From a virus, in the IMG/VR virus record IMGVR_UViG_3300031963_011500, positions 1 to 33,917 of that record: 33,917 bases of DNA; one strand, written 5' to 3'. This document shows, piece after piece, positions 12,965-33,917 of the stretch (within the stretch, counting starts at the first letter, position 1; each line of letters starts with the position of its first letter). A model generated the notes under the pieces. That model saw only the letters and a list, made by a program, of their open reading frames with translations, was not told where the DNA came from and did no database searches. Both the position numbers and the translations under genes were made by a program.

Positions 12965-13813
12965 ATGAATAAACTAATTAGAGAAGATATTGAAAGGATA
13001 AAAAGTTTGATGCTTGAGTCAGAAGGTAAAACAGAATACAACTTTTGTGATAGGTTTTCAGGTAACAAACAAAAAATGTATGTGTGTAGTAAAATCGGAT
13101 CATTAAAAGGATTTCTTTCTCGAAGTAACGGTCTTGATTTGAAAACGGTTATAGAAAAACAAATTTCAGATTTAGAGACTGAAATACCAAAAGATTTACA
13201 AAAAAAATTTATTGATGGTGCTATTTTTTTAGAATCCCTTGGAAAAATAACTGAGGATAAAAAAAATGATTTTATAGAAAATAACGTAATAAATAACAAA
13301 TTGGTTTATTTGAATGGAGAATGGCAACCAATAAATAAGTTGAACACAAATTATTATGATTTGGCAGAACTTCTAACTGAACTGATCTACAAAAATAAAA
13401 ACAACACTACATTCCAAGCTATTATCAAAGACCCTAAAACAACTTTGATGAGAATGAAATCAGAATTAGAAAAAATGATCGAAGATTATTTTGATGATCC
13501 TATGATGTTGCTTGATTACACCAAAAACATCCAACGAACAACCCAACAGGGTGAAAGTGCCGAAAGGAGAGTTAAAGAACATTTACAAGATAACGACTTC
13601 AAAGTTGAATATGAAGGTGGTAACGGTGATTTGATTGATATGGTATTTGGAACTGATCTAATTATGTCTCATCCTAAGTTTGGAGTAAAAACGATTCAAG
13701 TTAAGGCAAATGAAAAGGCTTATGATCAAGATTACAAATATGTTGATTGGATAATAATTGCAGACCCTTTCACTATTTATGATAATAAAACAAAAGAAAC
13801 AATTCAATTATGA
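12965..13813 (+). CDS. Tagged PD-(D/E)XK nuclease-like protein
   Basis: The ATG at 12965 is preferred to an in-frame TTG at 12950, which lies inside the preceding gene. The 282-residue protein starts MNKLIREDIERIKSLMLESE, resembling the tag of the proteins near 25-33 kb and ending in MLE-S, close to the prohead-protease motif. The middle is helical and unrecognised. From about 196 a PD-(D/E)XK-like core appears: GESAERRVKEHL (E197, E200), NGDLIDMVFGTDLIM (D222, D225, D231) and TIQVKAN (Q245, K247), i.e. an acidic ligand followed by the [DEQ]-x-K motif on a strand. Such nucleases cut DNA with Mg2+. If the tag is real, a nuclease would be packaged in the head and injected, perhaps to attack host DNA. 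Fold confidence is moderate. Confidence 0.6.
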   Translation: MNKLIREDIERIKSLMLESEGKTEYNFCDRFSGNKQKMYVCSKIGSLKGFLSRSNGLDLKTVIEKQISDLETEIPKDLQKKFIDGAIFLESLGKITEDKKNDFIENNVINNKLVYLNGEWQPINKLNTNYYDLAELLTELIYKNKNNTTFQAIIKDPKTTLMRMKSELEKMIEDYFDDPMMLLDYTKNIQRTTQQGESAERRVKEHLQDNDFKVEYEGGNGDLIDMVFGTDLIMSHPKFGVKTIQVKANEKAYDQDYKYVDWIIIADPFTIYDNKTKETIQL

Positions 13814-14406
13814 TGACATCAGGTCAAACATGGGTTACAAGAAGATTATCAGATATTATTGATTTTGTTGAGGAAGCTGCAGGTGATATTAGTATTGACG
13901 ACTATCCAAATTTTGAAATATGGATGATGGATGTCTTTGATAGTGCGTTAAATAGACTTAGTGATGAAAGTTATAGAGATGAAAATAAATTTTTAGATAT
14001 CTATAGTTCTGTTTTATCGTCATTGGAAGACATCTTTAAAGAACAATTACACGATTTTTATTTATCAGAAAAAGATAATGATGTAATAAACGAAAGTTCA
14101 GAAATACCAATTAGATTACTTAGACGATCTGTAGATTTAGAAAAGATTGGTGATATAGTAGAATACCAAACAGAAATAAATAATCCTTGTGATTTTGAGG
14201 ATGAAGAAGACTATTCCGACTTTTGTATTTTACAGGGAATTCATTTTTATTACTGTGATGAAGGATATTGTGATGAAGACGAAGATACTGAAGATTATGA
14301 AGGGCCATCACCAGCAATGGTAGAAGTAAGAAATGAGGTTGAACAATATATATATGATAAATACTATGACTATTTAGTTGGTCTTTATAATGACGCAGAT
14401 TGTTAA
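13810..14406 (+). CDS. Acidic protein with a possible INE-S cleavage site
   Basis: A 198-residue acidic protein (start ATG at 13810 within the preceding stop; a second ATG follows directly). The first 90 residues are helical (SDIIDFVEEAAGDIS, SVLSSLEDIFKEQL). Near residues 93-108 comes NDVINESSEIPIRLLRR: INE-S fits the [LI]-x-E cleavage motif and is followed by a basic segment that I recall next to such sites in other phage proteins. The C-terminal half is Tyr/Asp/Glu-rich (FYYCDEGYCDEDEDTEDYEG) with four Cys clustered. Unknown function; it may be a virion or scaffold protein cut during maturation. Confidence 0.45.
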   Translation: MMTSGQTWVTRRLSDIIDFVEEAAGDISIDDYPNFEIWMMDVFDSALNRLSDESYRDENKFLDIYSSVLSSLEDIFKEQLHDFYLSEKDNDVINESSEIPIRLLRRSVDLEKIGDIVEYQTEINNPCDFEDEEDYSDFCILQGIHFYYCDEGYCDEDEDTEDYEGPSPAMVEVRNEVEQYIYDKYYDYLVGLYNDADC

Positions 14407-14408
14407 TA

Positions 14409-14717
14409 ATGAAAATACTAATATCAGAAAAGCAGGCAGATAGAATATTCAACGACAAAATTGAATGTGAAAAGTGTGAACACTCTTGGAAGAAAGAGAA
14501 TGATGACCCTCATCCATTTTTATGTCACGATTGTGGTTGGGATCAAAAGAAAGAAAAGTATGACAAAGAAAATCTATTTAAGTTTTGGAAAAATAAACTA
14601 TCCAAAGAACCAATCGACGAAAAATGGTCTCAAAAGTATAAAAAGTCAATAAATTGTAATAATCCAAAAGGTTTTAGTCAAAGAGCACATTGTCAGGGTA
14701 GAAAAAAAAGAAATTGA
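14409..14717 (+). CDS. Small zinc-ribbon protein with GFSQRAHCQGRKK tail
   Basis: The ATG at 14409 gives 102 residues. The start MKILISEKQ resembles other tag-like starts in the window (ISE fits the [LI]-x-E motif). A zinc ribbon follows: CEKC at about 21-24 and CHDC at about 41-44, separated by HSWKKENDDPHPFL. The C-terminus is basic and ends CNNPKGFSQRAHCQGRKKRN, a motif I recall as recurring at the ends of large-phage proteins, with two Cys that could bind metal. Binding of nucleic acid or DNA-associated proteins is plausible. It is the last small gene before the glycosyltransferases, three bases upstream of the first. Confidence 0.55.
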   Translation: MKILISEKQADRIFNDKIECEKCEHSWKKENDDPHPFLCHDCGWDQKKEKYDKENLFKFWKNKLSKEPIDEKWSQKYKKSINCNNPKGFSQRAHCQGRKKRN

Positions 14718-19315: not shown

Positions 19316-20227
19316 ATGAAAGTATCAATAACAGAAGATCAACTAAAAGTAGTACAATCAAAATTACTTTATGAACAAATCCTTGATGATCTTGTTTTCA
19401 AACTATCTTTAATTACAGAAGATGGTAAGACTAAACCTGATATGGAATGGGATTTTGAACCTATCAAAAAAGAAATTGATTTGTCTAAGTTATGGGTTAA
19501 AACTAAGGAAGACGCCATAAAATATATTGAAAAGGTTAAAGATAAAATTGAAAATCTTCCTTCTGACTTAAAAAAAAGAATTGTAAAATATATTGCTTAT
19601 TCCTTATTAGGTTTGTTGAGTTTGAAACAAATTGAAAAGTACTTGGATCCTCCATTACAAAGTGCGGTAGAAACTGAAAAAGAATTCATCAAAAAAGTAA
19701 TACCACCAAGAATAAGAAAGTCATCGGAAGGTTTAATAGATCACTTAAAATACGAAGAAGGATCCATTAGACATAAAGGACAACCAAATTTAGTGGCATA
19801 TGATCTTGGTGATGGTGCTTATACCATTGGTTATGGACACGCCATATTTCCTGATGAACAAGAAGGATTTGATTTTTTACCAAGATACTCAAAAATAATT
19901 CCAGGTAGAACAAAAATTACAAAAGAAGATGCCGAAAAATTATTGAAAGATGACATGAGAGAAGCGGAAAGTATCGTTAATCGAATTTTGGATCAGTGGG
20001 AAGAAAAAGGAATCAAACCACCAATCACACAAGGAATGTACGATGCGATGGTTTCAATGTCATTCAATATGGGAAGAGGTATAAGAACTTCTGATTTTAT
20101 ACAAGCTGTTAAACGAGGTGATTTTGATTTAGCAAGAAAACTAATTTTAACAACAAGTGAAAATTTATTTGACGAGTTTCCTGGATTAAAATCAAGAAGA
20201 AAAAAAGAATCAGAAATGTTTAAATGA
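19316..20227 (+). CDS. Tagged T4-type lysozyme (GH24), probably virion-associated
   Basis: The 303-residue protein has a C-terminal GH24 domain from about 137: LKYEEG with catalytic E148, then AYDLGDGAYTIGYGH with D163 and T170, matching the Glu, Asp, Thr triad of T4 lysozyme (E11, D20, T26). TQGMYDAMVSMSFNMG and GLKSRRKKESEMF are also typical. The first 130 residues are extra: the start MKVSITEDQLKVVQ and later KLSLITEDGKTK carry two [LI]-x-E-D sites (after E7 and E35), then a helical linker with a hydrophobic stretch (VKYIAYSLLGLLSL). It cleaves peptidoglycan. The tag-like start suggests a virion enzyme released by prohead protease for use at entry, rather than a simple endolysin. Confidence 0.8.
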   Translation: MKVSITEDQLKVVQSKLLYEQILDDLVFKLSLITEDGKTKPDMEWDFEPIKKEIDLSKLWVKTKEDAIKYIEKVKDKIENLPSDLKKRIVKYIAYSLLGLLSLKQIEKYLDPPLQSAVETEKEFIKKVIPPRIRKSSEGLIDHLKYEEGSIRHKGQPNLVAYDLGDGAYTIGYGHAIFPDEQEGFDFLPRYSKIIPGRTKITKEDAEKLLKDDMREAESIVNRILDQWEEKGIKPPITQGMYDAMVSMSFNMGRGIRTSDFIQAVKRGDFDLARKLILTTSENLFDEFPGLKSRRKKESEMFK

Positions 20228-20889
20228 TGGACAGGTTAAAACTATTAAAATTATTCAAAAGATTTGCGGGGGATGAAATTGATCTTCACGGGTTAAAATG
20301 TATTCCTGTTCGAGTTGGGGAAGAAATAATATCAAAAAGACATAATAAACCTTATTATCCGATTGAATTTAAAATAGAAAATCCAAATGATGTTCCTTAT
20401 TTCCATTCAATAGTGGATGAGGAACTTTTAGATATTGTAATGGAGTTTGAAGAGTATGTTGGTCTTAAATTAACTACTGAAATATTATGGGATGAACAGC
20501 CAAAATTTTATCTTAACGACAAAACAAGGGATCAAATTCAAAAAGTTTTCGACTCTGTAAGAGAAATTAAATTCACCACAGGAACCCCATTTGTTGGGTA
20601 TAGAAGATATGTAATCAATATAGAATCTGTTGGTTTAAAAAGTAAAAATTTTGATCATGATGCATATTATATTGATAATACCGTTGTTCCATTATCAGCA
20701 ACAAAAAATGGTGAAAATATCGATGTTAATGAAGCTATAAATGAATATATTGATGAATTCTTACCACAGGTAGAAACATACTACGAAACAGAAGAATATT
20801 ATAAAGGTGTTGATCAAGTAATCAATCAATACCCACTTCTTAATGCTGATTATGTTGCAACTTATTACGACACTAAGTTTATCCGATAA
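20224..20889 (+). CDS. Acidic protein, unknown function
   Basis: A 221-residue protein (ATG at 20224 within the lysozyme stop; a second ATG follows). It has a short helical, basic start (MMDRLKLLKLFKRFAGDEID) and then an acidic alpha/beta body: YYPIEFKIENPNDVPYFHSI, FTTGTPFVGYRRYVINIESV, and a Tyr/Glu-rich end (VETYYETEEYYKGVDQVINQ). No family is recognised. It is co-translated with the lysozyme and so is probably a virion or lysis-associated protein. Its last 11 bases overlap the minus-strand uvrC-like gene. Confidence 0.5.
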   Translation: MMDRLKLLKLFKRFAGDEIDLHGLKCIPVRVGEEIISKRHNKPYYPIEFKIENPNDVPYFHSIVDEELLDIVMEFEEYVGLKLTTEILWDEQPKFYLNDKTRDQIQKVFDSVREIKFTTGTPFVGYRRYVINIESVGLKSKNFDHDAYYIDNTVVPLSATKNGENIDVNEAINEYIDEFLPQVETYYETEEYYKGVDQVINQYPLLNADYVATYYDTKFIR

Positions 20890-22153
20890 TAGACTTACTT
20901 CGTTTCTTACGGTGAAAAGTGATAACAAATCGGTGAACCTCATTTTGAATCTCAGCCAACAAAAACCCAAACTCACTTCTTGGAATATCAAAACTTGACC
21001 CATCAGTCTTGTGGATTGTAGATGATCTGTGTTTGTCGTCTTTTGAAATGGAGATCAAATCAATTAGATTCAACAAACCAAGTTCCTCAAATACTTTCTT
21101 GGCAACACCCAACTGACCTTTACCACCATCAATAATGACAAGTGAAGGTAACTCTTGTTTTTCATTTAAAAGTCGTTTGAATCTACGATTTAATACCTCA
21201 TCGAAAGAAGCATAGTCATCAGGTCCCTCAACAGTTTTGATGTTGAACTTACGATAGTTTGACTTATCAGTTTTACCATTCTTGTAACGAACAAGAGCGG
21301 ACACCTGACAATCACCAGCAGTATGAGAGTTGTCAAAGGCTTCGATAAGAGTTGGGACATTCAATAAACCAAATTGTTCTTTGAATGATCTTGCAAAATC
21401 ACTATACTTTCGAACACGAAATGACTCAAGTTTTTTCTCCAATAAATCAACGACATCCATTTTGTTTTTGAATGTTTGAGCAAGCTCGAACTCCATCTGA
21501 TCAGAGTGATACTTCATATACTTCTTCAAACGATTTCGAACTTTGTCAAACTGAAAAGAAAATACATCTTTCATCTCATTTACAATCTTCAAGTAAGAAA
21601 ACTTTAGAATAGAAGAAACGCAAGGAGCATTACAACGACCAAGATGAAACTCTAAACAAGTCTTGAACTTTTCGTTTTGGATATTCTCTTCAGTCAAGTT
21701 GTAAGAACAAGATCTAAGATTGAAAATGTCATGAACCATCTCATAGATCTCATAACAAGAATTAGAACTTGTAGACTCCAAAAGAACTTCACCAGTAAAG
21801 TTAGAAGGATTGCAAACTAAAAGTCTTGGGAACTCATCTTGACTCAAAGTAATAAACCAACGACGAGAACGATCATCTTTTGCTTTGATGTTGTATTTTG
21901 GTTTGTGTGATTTGATAAGTTCATCCTCCAATAACAAAGCCTGACTCTCATCATTTGTAGTCATGAACTCAACATCAGTGATTTCATTTACCAAAGACAA
22001 AGTCTTCTGATCTTTGTGGTTTTTTTGAAAGTAAGACTTCACTCGTTTAGGGAGAAACTTTGATTTTCCAACATAGATGATCTGACCCTTCTTGTTTTTG
22101 AAAAGGTAACAGCCGCTTGATTGTGGTATGTTTGAAAGTTTCTCTGTAATCAC
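20879..22153 (-). CDS. uvrC: Short UvrC-like excision nuclease lacking the HhH domain
   Basis: The GTG start at 22153 is chosen because a TAnnTTTG promoter lies exactly 4 nt upstream; an in-frame TTG at 22168 would overlap that promoter. The 424-residue protein has a GIY-YIG domain (SGCYLFKNKKGQIIYVGKSK), four Cys in the iron-sulfur pattern (RSCSYNL, KTCLEFHLGRCNAPC), a UVR-like helical region (QMEFELAQTFKNKMDVVDLL) and the RNase H-like nuclease (EAFDNSHTAGD, LVIIDGGKGQLG, HRFVITFHRKK) with the expected Asp, Asp and His. It ends at HRKKRSKSIIG, where cellular UvrC (about 600 residues) goes on into tandem helix-hairpin-helix motifs. In excision repair UvrC cuts both sides of a lesion with UvrAB; neither UvrA nor UvrB is in the window. 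Confidence 0.88.
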   Translation of the reverse strand: MITEKLSNIPQSSGCYLFKNKKGQIIYVGKSKFLPKRVKSYFQKNHKDQKTLSLVNEITDVEFMTTNDESQALLLEDELIKSHKPKYNIKAKDDRSRRWFITLSQDEFPRLLVCNPSNFTGEVLLESTSSNSCYEIYEMVHDIFNLRSCSYNLTEENIQNEKFKTCLEFHLGRCNAPCVSSILKFSYLKIVNEMKDVFSFQFDKVRNRLKKYMKYHSDQMEFELAQTFKNKMDVVDLLEKKLESFRVRKYSDFARSFKEQFGLLNVPTLIEAFDNSHTAGDCQVSALVRYKNGKTDKSNYRKFNIKTVEGPDDYASFDEVLNRRFKRLLNEKQELPSLVIIDGGKGQLGVAKKVFEELGLLNLIDLISISKDDKHRSSTIHKTDGSSFDIPRSEFGFLLAEIQNEVHRFVITFHRKKRSKSIIG

Positions 22154-22157
22154 AATA

Positions 22158-22165
22158 CAAATATA
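22158..22165 (-). promoter_or_regulatory. TAnnTTTG promoter (TATATTTG) of the uvrC-like gene
   Basis: The minus strand reads TATATTTG, then TATT, then the GTG start at 22153: a perfect -7 element with the same 4-nt spacing as at 9206 and 18920. The predicted mRNA is leaderless. A TTA stands near the -33 position in place of TTG. Confidence 0.6.
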
Positions 22166-22200
22166 CAAAATTTTTTATATTAACTACATGTTAAGATGAT

Positions 22201-22286: not shown

Positions 22287-23852
22287 ATGAAACAAATTTA
22301 CCTAGCAATACTGTCTGTTATGATGACGGTAATGACTTATTCACAAAGTCAATTTTGGACGGAAACTGATTATAAAGGGGCTTTTCCTGTAACGGATAAC
22401 TCACCTGCGACTGATTGGACTTATGGGTGGTCTAATTGGGATCCACAAAATACTCAATACCCTACAACACAAATCGTAATAAATTCTGACGTAACAACAA
22501 ATACGACTTGGTCAGGGGTTATTAAATTACAAAATAAAGTTTACGTTAGAAACGGAGCGACTCTTACAATTCTACCAGGAACTATTATTAGAGGTGATTA
22601 CAATACACAAGGGACTTTGATTATTACTAGAGGTTCTAGACTTGTTGCTGACGGAGAACAATTTAATCCAATCGTATTCACATCAAACAATCCAATAGCA
22701 CAAAGAAACGAAGGTGATTGGGGAGGTGTTGTAATTTTGGGTAATGCTAAAAACAACCAACCAGGTGGTGTTGCAAACATTGAAGGATTACCGCCAAGTT
22801 CAAATACTCAATACGGTGGAACAAACGATAACGACAATTCAGGTATTATTAGATATGTTAGAATTGAATTTGCTGGCATTCCACTTGAACCTAACAAAGA
22901 AATTAACGGATTAACTTTTGGTTCTGTGGGTAATCAAACTTTAGTTGATTATGTTCAGGTAAGTAATTGTGGTGATGACTCTTTTGAATGGTTTGGAGGA
23001 TCAGTAAATTGCAAACACTTAATATCATATTCAACAGTAGATGATGACTTTGATACAGACTTTGGATACAGAGGTAAAGTTCAATTTGGTTTGGCGATTA
23101 GAAATGAAAATTTATCAGACGCAGCTGGCGACTCAAATTGTTTCGAATCGGATAATGACGCACAGGGTAGTGTGGCTCAACCATTGACGGCACCTATTTT
23201 TTCTAACTTCACTATTATTGGTGCTAAGAGCAATGGGACGGTTTCCCTTCCAATAGGTGAGAAATTTGAAAAGGCTTTCAGATTAAGAAGAAATACTGCA
23301 ACTTCTGTTTTCAATACTATTGTTACTGGTTGGGAGAAAGGAGTATCACTTGAAGGGATTGCCGTAGAAGATAATTTGGCGGGAGACACGATGCATTTCC
23401 ACAGTAACATTCTTTCTAATTTTAATACAGGAACTGTGTGTTATACAACAACACCTAATTTCTTTTCTACATATTTTTCACAACAATCGAACGATTCAGT
23501 ATCAACACATTTAAATATTAATTGGGTAACACCTTTTGTTCCACTTGGTTTAACACCTGACTATCGTTTAATTGAAGGTTCATCCGCAGCGGTAGGGGCA
23601 AGTTTCCCAACTGAAATATTTGGTGATTTATCGTCAGTTAAAGAAAACTCAAATGACTTTAGAATCTATCCTAACCCAGCAAGTGAGGTGGTTTACGTTA
23701 GTAAGAAATCATATATTGAATTGATTGACCAAAACGGTAAAGTAATTGATTCTGTTAATGATAATGAAATTGATTTACGTAACTTGGAGAATGGTGTTTA
23801 CTACATTCGAGTAAACAAAGTTAAAACTAAAAAATTAATTATTAGAAAATGA
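22287..23852 (+). CDS. Secreted beta-helix-like protein with T9SS sorting domain
   Basis: The 521-residue protein starts with a signal peptide (MKQIYLAILSVMMTVMTYSQ, cut after residue 18-20). The body from about 60 to 400 resembles a family common in Bacteroidota surface proteins, with repeated beta-helix-type rungs: NKVYVRNGATLTILPGT, GTLIITRGSRLVADG, PIVFTSNN, GDWGGVVILGNAKNN and IRYVRIEFAG. Residues 458-521 are a type A T9SS sorting domain (FRIYPNPASE, DLRNLENGVYYIRV, and KLIIRK at the end). The protein should be exported and displayed through the host T9SS. It may be a phage-encoded change to the host surface, or a gene taken from the host; its family is much more typical of cells than of phages. 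The next mini-gene starts inside its stop. Confidence 0.85.
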   Translation: MKQIYLAILSVMMTVMTYSQSQFWTETDYKGAFPVTDNSPATDWTYGWSNWDPQNTQYPTTQIVINSDVTTNTTWSGVIKLQNKVYVRNGATLTILPGTIIRGDYNTQGTLIITRGSRLVADGEQFNPIVFTSNNPIAQRNEGDWGGVVILGNAKNNQPGGVANIEGLPPSSNTQYGGTNDNDNSGIIRYVRIEFAGIPLEPNKEINGLTFGSVGNQTLVDYVQVSNCGDDSFEWFGGSVNCKHLISYSTVDDDFDTDFGYRGKVQFGLAIRNENLSDAAGDSNCFESDNDAQGSVAQPLTAPIFSNFTIIGAKSNGTVSLPIGEKFEKAFRLRRNTATSVFNTIVTGWEKGVSLEGIAVEDNLAGDTMHFHSNILSNFNTGTVCYTTTPNFFSTYFSQQSNDSVSTHLNINWVTPFVPLGLTPDYRLIEGSSAAVGASFPTEIFGDLSSVKENSNDFRIYPNPASEVVYVSKKSYIELIDQNGKVIDSVNDNEIDLRNLENGVYYIRVNKVKTKKLIIRK

Positions 23853-25455: not shown

Positions 25456-26409
25456 ATGAAAAATCTTGTTAGATCAATCCTTAATGAAGTTTACCAAAAA
25501 CAAAACAAACCTGACTTAATTAAGGAATGTACAATTGCTGCTGTAAGATTGGATGACACAGTAGTTTTAGCAAAAAACAGAGATAGAGGTTACAAGGCTA
25601 GAGTTGAGATTATTCATGAGATTGTGAACGATGTTGAAATGGTTTATTGGAGAGATATTGATACTGATTGGAGTGAGGGAATGAATGAATTTGGTATTGG
25701 TATTGTAAATTCTAGTTTAATGGTTGCCCAAGATGAGAAAGAAGGTAAAGGAGTTGAAAAAGAAAGAAAGATTGACGATAAAAGTAAGGATAAAACCGAA
25801 AAGAAAAGATTTGCTGCCGATGGAGGTAAAATAAGAAAGGCTTTAACCTATAAAAGTTTACCTAAAGTAATTAAATCTATTATTTCTTACAGAGGTGAAG
25901 ATAAAAAAGATGTGGGTCTCAAAGGAGAAACAATAGTATCAAATAATGAAAACATTTATATAGTTGAAATGACCGCTAAACATTCTCCGATAATTAAAAA
26001 ATTAAAATCTGATTCTAAAATTGTTGTGAGAACAAATCATGGAATTTATCAGAAGAGTGCTGGTTACACTCGTGGGAGGAAAAGAAAATCTTCCGTAACT
26101 AGAATGGAATTGGCGAAAAAACATTTGGAGGGTGCTAAAAAAGACATAGATGTTATTGACGCGATGAAGAAGAAATACAAAAAAGATCCATTTTTGAATC
26201 CATACAGAACAAAGAACATGTATCATATGCAAACAACAGGTCAAATAATGATGAACCTTGACAAAAAACTTGTTGTTGTTAGAATGGATAATGAGATGGG
26301 AGAGTTTGTTGGTATTAAAACAAAGTTACCAAAAGATTATAAAGCAAAAATTAAAATAAGAGTGGAGGGTGAAAAAACCCATGATAAAGGAAAAAAATTA
26401 CCAACGTAG
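25456..26409 (+). CDS. Tagged Ntn-hydrolase (linear amide C-N hydrolase-like)
   Basis: The ATG at 25456 is preferred to an upstream in-frame start at 25420, which lies within the terminator. The 317-residue protein starts with the tag MKNLVRSILNE and then DLIKECTIAAVRLDDTVVLA. The pattern C25-T, N41-R42-D43 (KNRDRG), EFGIGIVNSSL, NIYIVEMT and RTNHG is that of cysteine Ntn hydrolases (choloylglycine hydrolase, acyltransferase C45 group), which need C25 as the first residue of the mature chain and cut amide bonds. I22-K23-E24 before C25 fits the prohead protease motif [LI]-x-E, so maturation could expose the nucleophile. A charged insertion (about 95-120) is lysine-rich. The next gene's GTG start uses the last base of its stop. 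Confidence 0.75.
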   Translation: MKNLVRSILNEVYQKQNKPDLIKECTIAAVRLDDTVVLAKNRDRGYKARVEIIHEIVNDVEMVYWRDIDTDWSEGMNEFGIGIVNSSLMVAQDEKEGKGVEKERKIDDKSKDKTEKKRFAADGGKIRKALTYKSLPKVIKSIISYRGEDKKDVGLKGETIVSNNENIYIVEMTAKHSPIIKKLKSDSKIVVRTNHGIYQKSAGYTRGRKRKSSVTRMELAKKHLEGAKKDIDVIDAMKKKYKKDPFLNPYRTKNMYHMQTTGQIMMNLDKKLVVVRMDNEMGEFVGIKTKLPKDYKAKIKIRVEGEKTHDKGKKLPT

Positions 26410-28094
26410 TGAAAAATTTAATTAAAAAAATATTGAACGAAGAAACAAAATCACTTTTAACTGAAGGTGGTATTCGTGATATTAAGAAACTTGCTAAAAG
26501 ATATAAAATGGCTAAAATCTACTTCCACCTTGATTTAGATGGTGTTACAACTGCTTTAGCTATGAAACATTATTTAGAAAGAAATGGTATAAAAGTGGTT
26601 GATGCTGAACCAATTCAATATGGAGCAAAAGAATTTGCCGTTAAAAAACCTGACGGTGAAGGTGAGATTATGCCAGTTCTTGTAGATTTTGCACACGGTA
26701 AACCAATGTTTGTTATTCACACTGACCACCACGATACTCAAGCTGGTGTTGAAGGTGATACATCAACAAGTTTCAAGTCTGCAAGATCTAACGTTGAAAC
26801 TATATCACAAAGTATATCCCCATCTGAAATATTTCCACCTGAAGATGTTGAAACTATTTCAATTGTCGACTCAGCTGATTTTGCAAAACACGACATCAAA
26901 CCAAGAGACGTTATCAATTATCTATTTCAAATAGATAGAACCAAAGGGTTCAAAGAAAACAAAAGAAAAATGGGATTTGTTGCAAATAAATTATTATTAG
27001 CATTCAAAAACAAACCTAATTTCTTAAGTGATATTGTATTAAATGCACAACCATCCTTACTTAGTATCTTGATGAACATTAAAGATCAGATACAAAAGAA
27101 AGGTTATGCAACTTTAGATAAGTTAGAACAAAATAAAGAAGCATACATTGAATCAAGAAAGAAAGAAGGTGCTGTTGAATACTCTGATGGAGTAATTAGT
27201 CAATATGGTTTTGGTTCTACGATGAAACCTGGATCTTATGATCGTTACACACCATTTGAAAATTATCCTGAAGCTGATTTTTTAGTGACGGGAATGCATT
27301 TAGGTATGGTCCAAGCATCTTGTAACCCTTACAAAAAAGACAGAGCCCTTAAAGGTGTTAATTTAGGTGAAGTTAAGGATGAGGTTTTAGATAAAATGTC
27401 ATCAGAGTTAGAAAGTATAAAAGTAACTTTTGGTGATCTTAAAAGAGTTGGTGAACAAGAGGCTGAGTTTGGTTCTGTTGGATTCACATTAAAAGATTTC
27501 ATGGCAATTTATGGTAATGCTCCTTCATATAAAGTTGATGGTGGTAAGAGTACTTTAGATATTATTGGAAACATTTCTCAAAACTTATATAGAAAACTGA
27601 GTGATAAACAAAGAGACATGTTAGATAAAATAACTGTTAATGGTTTAGATGTAATTAAAGCAAACTCAGGTGGTCACAAATGTATTACCAATATTTCAGG
27701 AATAAGTTTCTTATTGAGAGATAGAAAAATGAGAACTAATACTGATGTTGAATCTATTCCTGCTGAACTACAACCGATTGCGACTTACGAGGGAGGTAAT
27801 GAGTTTGTTAAAGACATTAAAGGTAAGTTATTAAGATTTGGTAGTATCTCTGACAAACAAAAAGACGCCGCTATTAGACAAATTAATAAAGAAGGTTCTT
27901 GGTCAACAGGTGAAGTTGAAAGACCTAAAAAAACATTTGTTGATTTAGTTAAAGAAATACAAACAGAGTTCGTATCAATCTTAAAAAATAAGATAAAAGC
28001 ATCAGGAAATGATAGATCGGAACCTGATTTAGAAATAGAACTTGAAGAACAAGTTAGACGAATTACAAAAAAACAATTATCGTCAAGAATCTAA
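26409..28094 (+). CDS. Tagged DHH-family phosphoesterase
   Basis: The 561-residue protein uses a GTG start that overlaps the previous stop by one base. It starts with the tag MKNLIKKILNEETKSLLTEG, with two possible [LI]-x-E cuts (after E11 and E19). The catalytic part has FHLDLDGVTTALAMKHYL (D42, D44), LVDFAHGKP (D93), IHTDHHDTQ (D106, H107, H108) and SIVDSADF (D154), the DHH motifs of RecJ, NrnA and related enzymes. NSGGHKCITNISGI is the GGHxxA-type DHHA1 motif. The family cuts small oligonucleotides, cyclic dinucleotides or single-stranded DNA. A packaged DHH enzyme could destroy host signalling nucleotides or DNA on entry; the substrate is not readable here. Convergent with the next gene. 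Confidence 0.82.
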   Translation: MKNLIKKILNEETKSLLTEGGIRDIKKLAKRYKMAKIYFHLDLDGVTTALAMKHYLERNGIKVVDAEPIQYGAKEFAVKKPDGEGEIMPVLVDFAHGKPMFVIHTDHHDTQAGVEGDTSTSFKSARSNVETISQSISPSEIFPPEDVETISIVDSADFAKHDIKPRDVINYLFQIDRTKGFKENKRKMGFVANKLLLAFKNKPNFLSDIVLNAQPSLLSILMNIKDQIQKKGYATLDKLEQNKEAYIESRKKEGAVEYSDGVISQYGFGSTMKPGSYDRYTPFENYPEADFLVTGMHLGMVQASCNPYKKDRALKGVNLGEVKDEVLDKMSSELESIKVTFGDLKRVGEQEAEFGSVGFTLKDFMAIYGNAPSYKVDGGKSTLDIIGNISQNLYRKLSDKQRDMLDKITVNGLDVIKANSGGHKCITNISGISFLLRDRKMRTNTDVESIPAELQPIATYEGGNEFVKDIKGKLLRFGSISDKQKDAAIRQINKEGSWSTGEVERPKKTFVDLVKEIQTEFVSILKNKIKASGNDRSEPDLEIELEEQVRRITKKQLSSRI

Positions 28095-28096
28095 TT

Positions 28097-28378
28097 CTAA
28101 CCCATACTTTTTAAAACCATCTCCAAAGTGTAGATGGAATCTTTATCTTGTTTGGTCTTAACTTGTTTCGACTTCAAATACTCTAAACTTTGTAATACCT
28201 CTTCTTTTTTTGATTTAGGGTTTGAAACGGGATTATTAACCTGAGATTTTTTAACCACAGGAAATGATTTTTTTTGAGGAACTGATTCATTATCCAAAAA
28301 TTCTCTAACTATCTCTAAAGACTTGTCAGGGTTCCAAGTGAACATATTTACCAAGATGTAAGCGAATATCTTTTTCAT
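28097..28378 (-). CDS. Small protein with hydrophobic N-terminus, unknown function
   Basis: A 93-residue protein beginning MKKIFAYILVNMFTWNPDKS, with a short hydrophobic start, then a polar, lysine-rich middle (PVVKKSQVNNPVSNPKSKKE) and a helical C-terminus (EVLQSLEYLKSKQVKTKQDK). It is untagged and is transcribed against the tagged block from its own leaderless-type promoter. It may be an early regulator or small membrane-associated protein. No family is recognised. Confidence 0.5.
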   Translation of the reverse strand: MKKIFAYILVNMFTWNPDKSLEIVREFLDNESVPQKKSFPVVKKSQVNNPVSNPKSKKEEVLQSLEYLKSKQVKTKQDKDSIYTLEMVLKSMG

Positions 28379-28382
28379 ACTA

Positions 28383-28390
28383 CAAAGATA
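28383..28390 (-). promoter_or_regulatory. TAnnTTTG promoter (TATCTTTG)
   Basis: The minus strand reads TATCTTTG, then TAGT, then ATG at 28378: a perfect -7 element with 4-nt spacing. It lies in a 39-base divergent gap together with the plus-strand TATTTATA at 28405, so the two promoters face opposite ways and may compete. Confidence 0.6.
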
Positions 28391-28404
28391 ATGAAAATAA
28401 TCGA

Positions 28405-28412
28405 TATTTATA
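28405..28412 (+). promoter_or_regulatory. TATTTATA promoter-like element
   Basis: TATTTATA ends about 6 nt before the ATG at 28418 and is likely to drive the tagged operon from 28418 to the window's end. Read on the other strand it is TATAAATA, the T4 late-promoter sequence, placed upstream of the minus-strand gene. Confidence 0.4.
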
Positions 28413-28417
28413 AAAGG

Positions 28418-29935
28418 ATGAAAGATTTAATAAGAAACATATTGAGGGAAAAAACTTCAACAAAATCTAATACATCAATCTATGAAGGGGAATTAGATGA
28501 AAGAGGTAGACCAAGAATATATTCTGATGAAGACGTGTTAGAACGTGCTTGTCAATATAAAAACGCAAGAGACTTTTCAAAAAATGATGAGAAATACTAT
28601 GCTGCGGCACTAAGACGTAGAATGATGTTAAAAATACGTGGTGCTTGCGGTTACAAACCACTTGGTAATTTGTATAGTAGAATGTTATACATGTATATTT
28701 GGGAAAAAAACATCAATGCGGTTTATTTTGGTTTAACATGTGATGAAGACAGAAGATACAATGAACATACAAAAGAAGAAAAAGAAATATTAGATGAAAT
28801 GGATGTTGCTCCTAATTGTAAAATTGGAAATAAATCTGGAGTTCAAAACTTCATTAAACAACACGGTAATTTTGATAGGTACTTCAATATTTCAAACGGT
28901 TATATTGATGCTGAAACAGCAGCTTATGGTGAAATGTGTTTAATAGACCACTTCAAGACTGACCCCGAATGGGCCGATAAAATTATTGTAGTCAATAGAA
29001 CTAAAGGAGGTGAATTGGGTGGTAGATGTTTTGCAAGTGCTAGAAGAATGGCACAAGATGTTAAAAAAATATTAGAAAAACAATATAATACACCTGAAGA
29101 ATTAGAAAAAGGGGACCCTAAAATGTTCGCTTATTGGGCTAAAAATTCAAACACTCAGAGAACATTGAATCAAGGTTTGAATAAAAGATTTTTCCCTGAC
29201 GCTCCATATTCAAAAGACGAAATATTATCTGTTGCGATTAATTATTATGACGAAAATAAATTCAAAGAAGAAAACGAAAAAGCTTACAAAAGTGCAAGAA
29301 GAAATAAAATGTTAGATATCCTTTTCCCACCTGGATTTGTTTATGTGAATTCGGATAATGGTAAAACTTATAATAACTTGAAAGAAGTTAGCGATGGTTT
29401 GAAAGTTGATTTTTTTGATTTATTCAATGACATGAAACGAGGTCAAGGAGAATTGGATTATGGAATCACTTTAAAACCAAAGAATGAAATTAATGAAAAT
29501 GTATTAAGAAAAATTATAAAAGAAGAGACTGAAGATACTGAAAAAAAAGGTATTGATCTTGCTATCAAAATTTTGAAGAAAAGTTATCCATATATTGTAG
29601 GGTGGGAGTATAATTATGATTTGGAAACACCATCGTCATTTTACATATACCTTAATATTATTTGTGATATTGAAAAGGTAAAAGAATTTTATAATAGCGA
29701 ATTAAAACCATATTATCAGAAAAGAATTGAGGAATTAAAAGAAGATCTGTTTCCCTTTCCGACATCTATATTAAAGATTAATGAAGAACTTGACGACCAA
29801 ACAAAATTCGAAGATTATAAAAATATGAGACAAGAGTTGAGTGAGATATATGAAATGCTTCCTGAACATTTAGTAATAAAAGATAGATTTGGTGAACCTA
29901 AAGAATTAGATCCTGATAAGTTTAAATTTGTATGA
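28418..29935 (+). CDS. Tagged GIY-YIG nuclease fused to a second tagged module
   Basis: The ATG at 28418 is preferred to an in-frame ATG at 28391, because it starts exactly at the tag MKDLIRNILRE. The 505-residue protein has a basic region RGRPRIYSDEDVLERA and, from about 92, a GIY-YIG nuclease: YIWEKNINAVYFGLTCDEDR with R113, then H117, AYGEMCLIDHF with E172 and NRTKGGELGG. Such domains cut DNA. At 357-370 comes EINENVLRKIIKEE, an internal copy of the tag with cleavage motifs (INE, IKE), followed by a 135-residue module (IDLAIKILKKSYPYIVGWEY) resembling modules in the polyprotein at 31327. So two tagged virion proteins appear fused. Its stop overlaps the next gene by four bases. Confidence 0.75.
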   Translation: MKDLIRNILREKTSTKSNTSIYEGELDERGRPRIYSDEDVLERACQYKNARDFSKNDEKYYAAALRRRMMLKIRGACGYKPLGNLYSRMLYMYIWEKNINAVYFGLTCDEDRRYNEHTKEEKEILDEMDVAPNCKIGNKSGVQNFIKQHGNFDRYFNISNGYIDAETAAYGEMCLIDHFKTDPEWADKIIVVNRTKGGELGGRCFASARRMAQDVKKILEKQYNTPEELEKGDPKMFAYWAKNSNTQRTLNQGLNKRFFPDAPYSKDEILSVAINYYDENKFKEENEKAYKSARRNKMLDILFPPGFVYVNSDNGKTYNNLKEVSDGLKVDFFDLFNDMKRGQGELDYGITLKPKNEINENVLRKIIKEETEDTEKKGIDLAIKILKKSYPYIVGWEYNYDLETPSSFYIYLNIICDIEKVKEFYNSELKPYYQKRIEELKEDLFPFPTSILKINEELDDQTKFEDYKNMRQELSEIYEMLPEHLVIKDRFGEPKELDPDKFKFV

Positions 29936-30255
29936 AAGAGTTGATTAAACATATAATAAAAGAGGAAACTGAAGAAACTGATCAAAAGGTTATGAACTTC
30001 TTACTTCGAAGGTATGAAATTAATGAAATAAATATTGATGACAGAATTAAGTTTAAAGGGTTATACTTTACTGTTGGAGATGAACATTACGGAGTTTCAA
30101 TGTGGGATAGTAAAAAAAGACAGATTAGAAAAATTTTAGATATGTTAGAAGAAAATAATGTTATTGAACCTATAGACAATTTTGCTAACGAGAACGATCC
30201 ATACAGACAAAAAGTAGTTAGAACAATTAAAAAGTTTTTATCGGAAGTAATGTAA
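29932..30255 (+). CDS. Small tagged protein, unknown function
   Basis: A 107-residue protein beginning MKELIKHIIKEETEETDQKV, a clear copy of the N-terminal tag with IKE at its end. The rest is alpha/beta (KFKGLYFTVGDEHYGVSMWD) with a basic helix (SKKRQIRKILDMLEENNVIE) and a lysine-rich end. No family is recognised. It overlaps both neighbours (ATGA and TAATG), so it is part of the tagged operon and is probably a virion cargo protein. Confidence 0.6.
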   Translation: MKELIKHIIKEETEETDQKVMNFLLRRYEINEINIDDRIKFKGLYFTVGDEHYGVSMWDSKKRQIRKILDMLEENNVIEPIDNFANENDPYRQKVVRTIKKFLSEVM

Positions 30256-30689
30256 TGAAAGAATTAATTAAAAACATATTGAAAGAAAACGAAGAAAACA
30301 ATCTTGAACAAAGATTTAGAAATTCAATGCAAAAACTCCAATACATTTTTGAGAGTAGTATTTCTTCCGAAATTGATTCCGTAGAGATAAGTGAAATTGA
30401 ATTTGACCCAAAATATAATCAAATTCAAGCAAAACTTACCGTTAAATCATTATTCGAAGACAACGATTTTGGATCAATTGGTAGACATGCGGATAGTATA
30501 GAAAATGAAATCTATAAAATTAACAGACAATATACATTTACTGAAAACGGTGGTTTGATTAGAAGAGGACCTGATAATGATTGGATATTAGGATGTATGC
30601 CGATTGCTATGAGATGGCAGGCTGGTGGTGAGGAATCATTTGTTTTAACATTAGAGTTTTGGGTAAGTCAAGATGAATATGATGCGTGA
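30255..30689 (+). CDS. Small tagged protein, unknown function
   Basis: A 144-residue protein beginning MKELIKNILKENEENNLEQR, the tag with LKE at its end. The body starts with a helix (FRNSMQKLQYIFESSISSEI) followed by strands (DSVEISEIEFDPKYNQIQAK) in the same order as the repeated module of the polyprotein at 31327, then a C-terminal strand region (WILGCMPIAMRWQAGGEESF). It is co-translated with both neighbours. Function unknown; probably packaged. Confidence 0.6.
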   Translation: MKELIKNILKENEENNLEQRFRNSMQKLQYIFESSISSEIDSVEISEIEFDPKYNQIQAKLTVKSLFEDNDFGSIGRHADSIENEIYKINRQYTFTENGGLIRRGPDNDWILGCMPIAMRWQAGGEESFVLTLEFWVSQDEYDA

Positions 30690-31330
30690 TGAGAAATTTA
30701 ATTAAATTGATATTAGAAGATGAGGTTAGTAGAAAATACGCTAAACCTACACCAAAAGTAGAACAACTTGTTTATAAATGGTTGAATAAATATTTTGATG
30801 GTGTACAAATGTATCATAAAAAACATTATGAATCAACACATAGTTTTGAATTTTGTAAAAACGGAAAACAAATATTGGATGTTACTTTATATTTTCATAC
30901 TGATTACAGTGGAGATGAGGATAGAAGAAAAACTGAAGAAAGAAGTCTTGATAGAGGTATAATGGGAGTTCCAAAAAATGTATTTGATGATTTAACCACA
31001 GATCTTCCTATGAGAGTATCTTATTTAAAATACCTTTTTGAGGAATGGTTTGACGATACTTATTTAGGTGAAATCCAAAAAAAGATGGGTAGAAATGACA
31101 TATATATTGATGAATTTGATGTATATAATAGTGACGGTGATATTTGTTTTCCACCAATAACAAAACCTGATGATGTTACTGAGGAGGAAATGATAGAATA
31201 TATTCTTAAAGCCGGAAGATATAAAATGAAGGATATATTGTGGTGGGAAGAAAGATTGCCGGGATGGATTGAACAAACTTATTTAGAACAACTTAATGGT
31301 GCTGAATACAGAAGATTAAAAGGGCAATGA
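30689..31330 (+). CDS. Tagged protein, unknown function
   Basis: The ATG at 30689 (TGATG junction) is chosen over a GTG at 30686. The 213-residue protein starts MRNLIKLILEDEVSRKYAKP, a copy of the tag in which the motif is ILED. A helix (VEQLVYKWLNKYFDGVQMYH) and strands (SFEFCKNGKQILDVTLYFHT) follow in the order of the repeated module. The C-terminal half has acidic strands and helices (FDVYNSDGDICFPPITKPDD, WWEERLPGWIEQTYLEQLNG). No known family. The stop overlaps the polyprotein start by four bases. Confidence 0.6.
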   Translation: MRNLIKLILEDEVSRKYAKPTPKVEQLVYKWLNKYFDGVQMYHKKHYESTHSFEFCKNGKQILDVTLYFHTDYSGDEDRRKTEERSLDRGIMGVPKNVFDDLTTDLPMRVSYLKYLFEEWFDDTYLGEIQKKMGRNDIYIDEFDVYNSDGDICFPPITKPDDVTEEEMIEYILKAGRYKMKDILWWEERLPGWIEQTYLEQLNGAEYRRLKGQ

Positions 31331-33917
31331 GAGAACTGATTAAACATATCTTAAAAGAAAGTAGACTCCAACAAGAGTTGAAACAAGTTATCGAAGATAA
31401 TGGTATTTTTGATGCTATTGATATGGTTGGAGGAATAAAAAACTTTAAAAAAGTATTCAAGAATGATCCTGAAGCTTCTCAAATATTGGATGGATTAACA
31501 GGAGTTGTTGATTTTGAATATCACGATGCGTTTAAAGATCCTCGATTTTTTGTATTCCCAATTGAATATGAAATAATAGGTATTGAAAAAAACACATGGG
31601 GTACGCATTCTTGGCCTTTATTAAATCTTATTTATGATGAAAGTAAATTAACTTCAGCGGAAAAAAAGAAACTGATAACCATCCTTGCCACAATTCAAAA
31701 TGACAATACTGTAGGAAAGATAGAAACCAATTTACCTGAAATTAAAAGTTCTGGTTATTTTGATGTTAGACAAATAAATGGTAAAAATACCGATATACAT
31801 GATGTAGAATTCCCTTTTTCAAAAGAAGATGTGAAAAAAATACACAACAAACTTTATGGTGAATCTGAAAGTTTAAATGAAAGTGATAATCATGAAACTG
31901 ACAAAAATCTAAGAGCAATAAATGTATTGTTATCTTTAGTTAATTGGGATGGACTTTGTGATATATGGGCAGAATACAATCCTGATGATAAGGAATATGA
32001 AATACGGTCTAAGACTACTGTAAGACATTTTTATAGTGATGAAATACTTAAAGAATTAGAGTCTTTAGAGGACTCAATAAAATCTATGGGAATCAAAGTG
32101 TATATCTTTGCACCTTGGTATGTGGATAGTTGTGAAGATGAGGTTAAGTTCATGAACGAGAGTTCAAACAGAAGTGAAAAAGACACAAAAAAACTTTTCA
32201 GAATAACAAAAATGATAATGGAAGACCTAATACTTCCTGAATATAATCATCTTATTTGTTCTTATGAAATAACATTAAACGAAGTTTTCAATATACCTGA
32301 AGTTACAGTTTTATTTATTGGTGGTTACGGAACAAAACTTTGGCCCATGACACAAGGTATAAGACAAATGTATTTAAATGTTTTAGAGGACATTTCAAAA
32401 GAAATTGCAAACTATACAGGAGTAGTAATTGGTGTTCGTGGAGAACAAACACCAAAGTGTGATGATGAAGAAAATATTTATTTAAAAGAAAGTGAATCAA
32501 AAAATAAAGAATATAGTCCAGCAGGAAAAGAAGTAACACCAAAAGAAAAAGTTTATCATCAATCAAATCCTATTTTTAGAAATAAAATTGAAGAACAAGG
32601 TTTAAAAGTTCGTGCTGGTGAATGTTACAAAATATATGTAGGATATGGGGAAAAATGTATTCCTGCAATATTTGCAACCAACTCATCAAACAAAAGAGCT
32701 TGGTTTGATTCAACATATGACGACGATGTTTGGGAGATTGATACAACAAAAATACCAAATGTTAAATGGTTTAAAGATAGACATTTTGATTCAAGGTCAA
32801 AACATATTGTAACATTTGAAAATATACCAAGAGACGCAATCAAATTGATTTATGAAGGTTCAGGTAAAGACTCAGGACTGATGGAATCAGAAAGTAAATC
32901 AGAAGACAAAAAACTAAACTTAGTGAAAGAAATGATTTATAGTCTTTTTGATGAGGTTGAATTTATTGAAGTTGATACAAATTATCAAGGAAAACCACTT
33001 ATCAAAGTCTATCATGATGTAGAAGATACCGCAGCAAACTACGATAATTGGTTTACTCATAGAATAATAGATGAAATTAAAGAAATGACAGGAGATGGTG
33101 TTGTTTTAGCACCATGGTGGGCTTTAGGTTGGGATTGGAAATATAAGAATCCAGACATTTTTATTGGTGTTGAAAAAATAGACTATGACGATGAAGGTAA
33201 TGTTATAAACGAGTCAGAAGAAAAACAACCAAAGTATTTGAATATAATCAAAGATCTTGTAGAACCATTCAAAGACGAGGTGGGTGTATGTGATATAAAT
33301 GTTTCATATGACGATGATGATGATATGTATAGTGTTTATATTGTTATGAGTACGGAAGAAATGAATGATAAGTTTTCTTATGTTCCCATGATACAAAGCC
33401 ACATTTCAAAATTGAGAATAAATGTTAGAACTACCATTAAAGATTATTTACCAATAGATAATTTGTATGTTGGGTCATATGGTAAACCAAATTGTAATTG
33501 GAACCCTCTAAATGAATCATCAATTAAAGAAAAATCTTTAGTAAAACTAATAGAAAAAGACGGACTATACAACTTTATTGAAATGTCAGGATTAGACTTC
33601 AATCAAGTTAGATCGTTAATAAAACAAATAGACAACCCCAAAGAAATATTAAAACAATATATTCGAGAATTTGTTTTAGAACATGATGGGACGAGTAATG
33701 GGGATTATGGATCTCTTTTCGCATTAAGATTACCATTGAGTAATACCAAATATGTTAATGACATAATGGTTCAAGATAGAGACCAAATTGCCGTTGAAAT
33801 ATGGGGATATGAAGAAGATGAATACGGACATACAGAACAAACCGAACAGTACCTAACATCAATTAACACCCTAACTACTGAAGAGTTACTATCAATCCTT
33901 TCTTGGATGATGGAAAC
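31327..33917 (+). CDS. Tagged polyprotein with repeated LxE-S cleavage sites (5' part)
   Basis: The gene starts at ATG 31327 inside the preceding stop and stays open to the right edge: 863 codons without a stop. It begins with the tag MRELIKHILKES. The [LI]-x-E-S motif recurs after LKE11, LNE185, LKE388, LME520, INE629 and LNE730, with a weaker MNE-S at 278. Each is followed by a charged, flexible stretch and then a new helix, so the protein looks like a string of 100-200-residue modules. Modules after 185, 520 and 629 share a helix plus strand pattern (KLNLVKEMIYSLFDEVEFIE, YLNIIKDLVEPFKDEVGVCD). The first and last modules also match each other (VIEDNGIFDAIDMVGG, LIEKDGLYNFIEMSGL). No enzyme domain is recognised. 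It is probably cut into several internal virion proteins by the prohead protease. Confidence 0.75.
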   Translation, partial: MRELIKHILKESRLQQELKQVIEDNGIFDAIDMVGGIKNFKKVFKNDPEASQILDGLTGVVDFEYHDAFKDPRFFVFPIEYEIIGIEKNTWGTHSWPLLNLIYDESKLTSAEKKKLITILATIQNDNTVGKIETNLPEIKSSGYFDVRQINGKNTDIHDVEFPFSKEDVKKIHNKLYGESESLNESDNHETDKNLRAINVLLSLVNWDGLCDIWAEYNPDDKEYEIRSKTTVRHFYSDEILKELESLEDSIKSMGIKVYIFAPWYVDSCEDEVKFMNESSNRSEKDTKKLFRITKMIMEDLILPEYNHLICSYEITLNEVFNIPEVTVLFIGGYGTKLWPMTQGIRQMYLNVLEDISKEIANYTGVVIGVRGEQTPKCDDEENIYLKESESKNKEYSPAGKEVTPKEKVYHQSNPIFRNKIEEQGLKVRAGECYKIYVGYGEKCIPAIFATNSSNKRAWFDSTYDDDVWEIDTTKIPNVKWFKDRHFDSRSKHIVTFENIPRDAIKLIYEGSGKDSGLMESESKSEDKKLNLVKEMIYSLFDEVEFIEVDTNYQGKPLIKVYHDVEDTAANYDNWFTHRIIDEIKEMTGDGVVLAPWWALGWDWKYKNPDIFIGVEKIDYDDEGNVINESEEKQPKYLNIIKDLVEPFKDEVGVCDINVSYDDDDDMYSVYIVMSTEEMNDKFSYVPMIQSHISKLRINVRTTIKDYLPIDNLYVGSYGKPNCNWNPLNESSIKEKSLVKLIEKDGLYNFIEMSGLDFNQVRSLIKQIDNPKEILKQYIREFVLEHDGTSNGDYGSLFALRLPLSNTKYVNDIMVQDRDQIAVEIWGYEEDEYGHTEQTEQYLTSINTLTTEELLSILSWMME

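Follow-up and report, generated by a model that had tools for sequence, protein, structure and literature searches.

Why do seven genes of a virus begin with nearly the same 11 residues and then continue into unlike bodies? These genes lie in the last part of the IMG/VR record IMGVR_UViG_3300031963_011500, whose entire 33,917 bases, a genome fragment, are the window analysed here. From comparisons with related phages we consider it likely that the shared peptides (the tags hereafter) are capsid-targeting propeptides, which a gp21-like prohead protease would cut off, so that the body of each protein would stay in the head and accompany the DNA. The seven genes are the following:

25456..26409, + strand: Ntn-hydrolase (C45/AAT-like) gene; tag MKNLVRSILNE; propeptide of residues 1-24 (25456-25527), MKNLVRSILNE...DLIKE
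26409..28094, + strand: DHH-family phosphoesterase/RecJ-like gene with a GTG start; tag MKNLIKKILNE at 26409-26441
28391..29935, + strand: fused gene, GIY-YIG-like N-terminal part and C-terminal domain; tag MKDLIRNILRE at 28418-28450
29932..30255, + strand: tagged gene without an assigned function; MKELIKHIIKE followed by ET
30255..30689, + strand: tagged gene without an assigned function; MKELIKNILKE followed by NE
30689..31330, + strand: tagged gene without an assigned function; MRNLIKLILED
31327..33917, + strand: putative cargo polyprotein, which runs off the window end; tag MRELIKHILKE at 31327-31359

These starts had been noticed in an earlier reading of the letters alone (the sequence-only reading), and they were confirmed when the window was searched in all six frames, allowing one mismatch: just the seven tags were found, at 25456, 26409, 28418, 29932, 30255, 30689 and 31327, and no others. 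The bodies behind the shared start are indeed unlike, as claimed, since BLASTP at E 0.1 gave no pairwise match among them; we also tested whether the small bodies could be copies of a single repeated domain, and abandoned this. The claim that the peptides end in LNE, LRE, IKE or LKE holds for six of them, whereas the tag of the 30689 gene ends in E-D (in some relatives this gene has MKDLIRHILKE or MKELIRYILKE, each followed by E). Regarding the folds that had been named, Ntn and DHH are borne out by profile or motif, but GIY-YIG is a weak match (Pfam E 0.06). Three of the genes have in-frame starts 5' of the tag (25420, 28391 and 30686), and most of the seven share a few bases with a neighbouring gene, at the start or at the stop. 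When the codon pairs at tag positions 2-11 were compared (n=210), 72 had the identical codon, 49 were synonymous and 89 non-synonymous. The tag letters are thus held at the protein level through codon changes, which excludes a recent DNA duplication.

The DHH protein of the window has homologues in two uncultured phages (635 and 642 kb) and in hundreds of IMG/VR stretches, the best 80 of which were studied as loci. A 292 kb relative found through this gene, G001, was used to write a program that calls tags. N-terminal words recur across dozens of genes of G001 and fall into four main types, namely the short MKxLIRxILKE, MKRIVRLTESDLARIVRRVINE, MKIIITESQYxxLLE and IxxLHxxxxLLxE, with a fifth type, MNLQENIRRI...LxE, near the short one; the short and the RLTES types look amphipathic and basic. 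The caller marks 67 of the 324 genes of G001, the genome on which it was made, against 4.8 in N-terminal shuffles. With the caller frozen, 37 of 317 genes were tagged in the held-out relative G019 (shuffle mean 4.6, maximum 11) and 41 of 352 in the held-out G007 (mean 5.5, maximum 14). The controls gave 0/47 in a crAss001 piece and 0/64 in a T4 piece, and in Flavobacterium phage immuto (148 of 160 kb) 3 of 185 genes were tagged by this first caller, which is the chance level. The core of G001 (25-165 kb, limits picked once the gene list had been viewed) is poor in tags, with 10/136 genes against 57/188 outside it. Furthermore, a plain count of [LIVM]xE over the N-terminal 80 residues, for genes of at least 90 residues, showed a slight rise around residues 9-24, and therefore the signal is carried by the shape of the tag and not by the bare site.

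The 642-kb phage, LR756502, has its own tag set, MKHLKKYNE and MKYLKIFE, both followed by S. Here 111 of 892 genes were tagged against around 15 expected (63/444 and 48/448 in the two halves), as counted with a second caller built on that same genome after its words had been seen; on the controls this second caller marked 0/47 in the crAss001 piece, 2/64 in the T4 piece and 4/139 in two immuto pieces. Looking for the tag on other genes, as the sequence-only reading had proposed, led to far more than seven genes, but to at least four types of tag instead of one. In G007 we also observed five loci (L274, L279, L282, L283 and L285) with similar proteins of around 150 residues and MKIIITENQYKLIKE-type tags, that is, several scattered copies in one genome.

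When the conservation of tags and bodies was compared in related phages, a check suggested in that reading, the outcome was in its favour: tags are swapped between homologues and [LIV]xE is kept before the body. A script listed 14 groups of homologous bodies with differing tag types, of which 9 were genuine by eye and 5 were judged class mis-calls. For example, bodies that are 87% identical carry MKNINDIIRKVLIE or MKIQLTESDLVILIKKIISE, and bodies that are 75% identical carry MKNLNYIIRKVLLE or MNREIKITESQLTSLIRKVVNE. The tag types therefore appear to be interchangeable in use. The propeptide of the DHH gene could be read at 78 of the 80 loci (L012 and L040 have no usable open reading frame, ORF), and all 36 distinct propeptides, of 7, 8, 16 or 19 residues, end in [LIV]xE before the same body. 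In the DHH gene of the window (26409) the final cut is predicted after E19 (26465), where LLTE is followed by GGIRD. Both E19 and the motif HTDHHD are invariant in 33 rows, and the best matches of the protein include RecJ, PggH, DhhP and NrnA. The DHH propeptide of LR756502, MLRKYGQFINE, resembles the capsid-targeting sequence (CTS) of T4.

Many bodies are a separate tagged gene in one phage and a domain of a longer protein in another. Among 44 non-redundant fusion junctions, 38 have [LIVMF]xE within -8 to +6 residues of the predicted boundary, against a mean of 13.8 and a maximum of 24 in 1000 trials with random places. Since the motif also stands at internal junctions, the tag would mark sites of cutting and not the N-terminus alone. 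In the window the motif is also found inside the proteins of the 28391, 31327 and 13810 ORFs, the first of them with this feature:

29489..29524, + strand: internal tag INENVLRKIIKE followed by ETED, at the fusion junction of the GIY-YIG-like gene

The C-terminal domain of this gene stands alone in L005, L007 and L107, with MKELIRHILKE (L005) or MRNLIKQILKE, and in L003, L005, L007 and L010 the GIY-YIG-like ORF in turn has the body of the 29932 gene as its C-terminal domain. The 31327 polyprotein has internal [LIM]xE/S sites ending at 31881, 32160, 32490, 32886, 33213 and 33516, with pieces of 93-174 residues between them. Counting the end of the tag itself there are 7 [LIM]xES against 1.09 expected, a number reached in 1 of 5000 shuffles. 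In G001 and in a further relative, G002, tagged genes of their own correspond to the first part of this polyprotein and to its part from residue 521 onwards; tblastn of the polyprotein against named phages gave no match.

In the Ntn hydrolase the site stands right before a cysteine. The propeptides are of three types with differing lengths; E24 and C25 are invariant in 19 aligned rows, always as [LI]xE then C, and [LI]xE lies directly before the Cys in 18 of 18 distinct homologues (27 loci). The homologues in two cultured Chryseobacterium phages, MA9V-1 and MA9V-2, which are 41-43% identical, read FLNE then C and FINE then C. The profile is of the C45/AAT type (AAT, C45_proenzyme), its members being partly over and partly below the curated cut-offs. 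In an AlphaFold model of low confidence (pLDDT 61.6), the aligned range starts at residue 25, matched to residue 126 of human NAAA (Z 12.6, root-mean-square deviation 3.4, 166 residues), to residue 143 of human acid ceramidase (Z 12.7, 3.6, 173 residues) and to residue 103 of isopenicillin N acyltransferase (Z 10.8, 3.8, 177 residues); the last is also the top Foldseek match, with a TM-score of merely 0.35. According to the titles of structure entries, the C126A form of NAAA and the Cys143Ala form of acid ceramidase are uncut precursors, and we take Cys103 to be the nucleophile of isopenicillin N acyltransferase. Profile and low-confidence model thus point to an Ntn fold with a Cys nucleophile heading the mature chain, and the predicted cut E24/C25 would expose the presumptive nucleophile Cys25. 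C45 Ntn hydrolases expose their Cys by autoproteolysis, which agrees with the name of NF040521. The phage enzyme is like these three in its fold and in having Cys25 at the nucleophile position, but differs in that the preceding residue is always E with [LI] at P3, and this invariant motif suggests that the phage protease, not self-cleavage, activates it. Since the predicted cut lies directly before the presumptive catalytic Cys, this protease would activate the enzyme within the particle and nowhere else.

Regarding the protease, the sequence-only reading had named the absence of a gp21-type gene as evidence against itself. The search was negative in the window, a fragment, but positive in most long relatives, among them G019 and G021, whose Ntn hydrolase is 85% identical to that of the window and whose Peptidase_S77 match is at 1.4e-23. 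Peptidase_S77 was over the cut-off in 2/7, 9/12, 8/10 and 3/4 records of four sets of relatives and named phages; G001, G002, MA9V-1 and MA9V-2 are all over it. The positions of H85 and S140 of T4 gp21, presumably its catalytic His and Ser, are kept in the proteases of 18 of 18 relatives, which were picked by BLAST similarity and not by motif. T4-type portal and gp23 genes are present in G001, G002, LR745206 and LR756502, and in G001 and G002 the capsid gene has tagged genes next to it. The propeptide of the major capsid protein ends in LINE/A in 80 of 80 homologues; these are the best 80 of at least 600 relatives, all 73-86% identical, so close to the query that the counts are not independent.

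A bS21 gene was found in 7 of 10 relatives at E 0.001 (5 over the cut-off), near the S77 gene in six of the seven (the exception being G023); in G001 and G002 bS21 and the capsid genes lie on opposite strands. This places them with or near phages with predicted freshwater Bacteroidetes hosts that encode bS21 (PMC9723584). The likeness is the bS21 gene in the head module of the relatives, a module not present in the window; in the part of PMC9723584 available to us no tag system is seen.

Some observations on the head genes of these phages stand on their own. LR756502 has at 225272-227371 a weak S77 match in a 699-residue frame, which adjoins the capsid gene and has a long YSEYIAE-repeat tail. 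Both in LR756502 and in L122 of LR745206 the gp21-like match is followed by a tail of around 14-residue repeats (YSEYIAENLDKNI), each resembling a CTS end; perhaps protease and scaffold are in one chain there, with cargo tags copying the scaffold repeat. In L302 and L301 (MA9V-1 and MA9V-2) the S77 matches are parts of very long open frames, with 1349 and 1213 residues, which may be fusions of protease and scaffold of this same kind. For MA9V-1 the excerpts of PMC10537231 report at least 15 bands in gel electrophoresis (SDS-PAGE) of purified virions and name ORF151 'Prohead core protein serine protease'. The portal gene of G002 (39737-42505, 922 residues) has an insertion after ESMEY that begins CLAGDTKIATPNG and is intein-like by eye.

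The seven genes stand as they were found, but they are not the complete set of the window, where the 12965 and 19316 genes carry other tag types:

12965..13813, + strand: gene with another tag type, MNKLIREDIERIKSLMLE followed by SEG
14086..14094, + strand: internal site DVINE followed by SSEIP, within the ORF 13810-14406
14409..14717, + strand: possible ITExQ-type tag MKILISEKQAD, a weak case
19316..20227, + strand: Phage_lysozyme gene (E 9.1e-18); ITExQ-type tag MKVSITEDQLKVVQSKLLYE followed by Q, and a second site LITE followed by DGK

The relative of the 12965 gene in G002 has MNKLIKEEILRINELMNTKILNE followed by SEY, and the site at 14086..14094 aligns with the body start of a separate tagged gene in L053. 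The lysozyme gene is not marked by the frozen caller. Among its 11 distinct homologues residue 20 is E in 9, with a hydrophobic P3 in 7 of those 9, and a second [LI]xE is present in all 11.

The best reading of these results is a greatly enlarged T4-like system of capsid targeting and prohead protease in giant lake phages, with cargo polyproteins and an enzyme that the cut would unmask. An amphipathic N-terminal tag, of several interchangeable types, would draw the protein into the scaffold core as the prohead forms; an S77 gp21-like protease would cut after [LIV]xE and free the body within the head, where it would remain and travel along with the DNA. The same protease would trim the major capsid protein at LINE/A, itself a presumed cut. 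In fused units one N-terminal tag would serve several domains, which the internal [LIM]xE/S sites would part, and the cut before the catalytic Cys would turn on the Ntn hydrolase in the particle only. The proposal of a sorting signal for a large set of internal virion proteins, with which the sequence-only reading had explained the seven starts, gains support from the tags on unlike bodies, their exchange between homologues, the constant [LIV]xE, the gp21-like protease of close relatives and the LINE/A of the capsid protein. There is a strong case, from independent lines, for cutting after [LIV]xE, and a good but indirect one for the prohead protease making this cut inside the head; by analogy with T4 we infer injection of the cargo into the next bacterium. 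More tentatively, and with somewhat less than an even chance of being right, the prohead may be a chamber of delivery and activation, with tens to around 100 modular-tagged cargo genes per genome, many of them polyproteins, and an Ntn zymogen uncovered in the particle before ejection.

Several findings weigh against the capsid-targeting reading. The window, as a fragment, has neither a gp21-type protease nor a capsid gene. There was no S77 match in G018 (153 kb), the nearest long relative, with an Ntn hydrolase 96% identical, nor in G020 (274 kb), nor in G003-G005, G009, G015 and G016, all of which may be fragments, and the matches of LR745206 and LR756502 are below the curated cut-off. The protease alone does not predict tags, because immuto has a gp21-like protease (6.9e-36) and yet its tags are at the chance level. 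A scaffold-like gene, examined for an accumulation of cut sites, has 12 of them in G002 against 4.6 expected, but in G001 there is no clear excess (9 against 5.3; 157/2000 shuffles). Some tagged bodies match cytosolic enzymes (Pterin_4a), 6 of the 44 fusion junctions have no site, and in 2 of the 11 lysozyme homologues residue 20 is N or Q, with no E. Moreover, the tags are mostly followed by E, N, S or Q, unlike the capsid site with its A, and therefore the first [LIV]xE is perhaps not the cut bond; in many proteins the cut may fall instead at another [LIV]xE further downstream, as predicted for the DHH and Ntn proteins.

In a rival reading, [LIV]xE would be cut by another protease, or outside the head by that of the phage, in an ordinary processing of zymogens and polyproteins in the cytoplasm with no entry into the virion. 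All the cut-site data fit any protease of such specificity, and most tagged bodies have no Pfam match. We nevertheless regard this as improbable, given that the capsid propeptide ends at the same site, that most long relatives encode a gp21-like protease, that tagged genes adjoin the capsid gene and that several tagged peptidoglycan enzymes suit delivery at entry. The amphipathic, basic look of the short and RLTES types could instead mean that the peptides are never removed and act as helices docking the proteins on the membrane, the nucleoid or a phage structure. This seems quite improbable: DHH propeptides down to seven residues still keep [LIV]xE, Ntn propeptides keep just [LI]xE before the Cys, and the motif persists at internal junctions.

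It is very hard to believe that the peptide has no function and is a shared 5' gene end, spread by recombination or kept for translation initiation. The few-base overlaps of most of the seven genes with a neighbour would suit such an origin, and recombination at shared ends could produce the exchange of tags; however, the tag letters survive synonymous codon changes, differing tag types stand on bodies up to 87% identical, and the motif recurs within fused proteins, at places without any start codon.

As putative capsid-targeting propeptides, the tags can be compared with three known systems. T4 carries a handful of cargo genes, and its head proteins with propeptides read MKTYQEFIAE then A and MAKINELLRE (gp24) then S, which we take to be the cut positions. 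The T4 internal proteins (IPI-III, Alt) likewise have a short N-terminal propeptide, cut by gp21, with an [LI]xE end on unlike bodies, and the relatives have portal, protease and capsid genes of the T4 type. As in T4, the [LI]xE end is common to tags and major capsid protein, although the P1' residue differs and the capsid cut is a presumed one. The differences are the interchangeable tag types on around 10 to 20 percent of the genes, the fused cargo, the site at an enzyme nucleophile, and the following residue, which is A or S in T4 and often E, N, S or Q here. Our caller does not mark the CTS MKTYQEFIAE in the T4 piece; MAKINELLRE of gp24 and MLRKYGQFINE of LR756502 look alike, but both strings are very short. 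The peptides would work like a CTS, but we do not class them as homologues of that of T4, whose internal proteins are described in the excerpts of PMC3012670 as highly diverse with the CTS alone conserved.

In SPN3US and phiKZ, according to the parts of PMC5694885 and PMC10052503 available to us, the head contains many proteins, and the prohead protease removes propeptides from some of them at AxE; gp53 and gp54 start with 15 identical residues. These are the points of resemblance, but most propeptides are longer than 100 residues, the site is AxE and not [LIV]xE, and 42 head proteins are uncleaved; a short tag on dozens of genes is not mentioned in those parts. In phage P1 the first 30 residues of DarB suffice to carry a reporter into the capsid (PMC9024508, as far as excerpted), an N-terminal packaging signal too, but on one protein. 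Among the titles and abstracts of open-licence literature we found the T4, SPN3US and P1 cases, none describing such a tag set, and no report of immuto virion proteomics; the excerpts of the MA9V-2 paper (PMC13414440) contain no mass spectrometry.

Regarding the functions of the cargo, 119 tagged proteins matched 19 Pfam families, with one member each, including lysozyme, LysM, M23 and VanY-type peptidases, PAP2 and the Ntn enzyme, as well as a pterin dehydratase and an acetyltransferase; several of these enzymes act on peptidoglycan. The 119 were taken from 138 in-piece proteins, leaving out 5 shorter than 90 residues and 14 that looked chance-like by eye (one of the 14, in L283, is a true tag), and 7 more crossed piece ends. 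Function is not given by Pfam, PHROGs or NCBIfam for most tagged bodies. In a sample of untagged G001 genes (88 of 245 in-piece proteins, the long ones minus the six longest) the matches were to replication, sugar and structural families, and the higher Pfam rate of this sample is partly a size effect, since it consists of long proteins. At least one internal protein of T4 inhibits a host restriction system (PMC9391042, from its excerpts), and therefore anti-defence or envelope functions are natural guesses for the cargo.

If the capsid-targeting reading is true, around 10 to 20 percent of the genes of huge phages, mostly without a role so far, could be marked as carried in the virion, and their products would reach the host as it is infected, at the point where its defences first come into play. 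[LIV]xE at the body boundary would be a simple computational rule for listing cargo and for predicting cut proteins and their sites, and the tags would be a natural set for loading proteins into phage heads. The Ntn case would propose a new activation route for an Ntn enzyme.

Outside the tagged genes, two large proteins of the window (814-2721 and 22287-23852) have C-termini that look by eye like type IX secretion sorting domains (VVPNPVVDE... and IYPNPASEV...), which, if true, would route phage-coded proteins through the type IX secretion system of the host. The gene at 20879-22168 on the minus strand is UvrC-like by eye. Gene 203 of G001 has a similar start, and the UvrC RNase H domain is matched by one untagged G001 gene.

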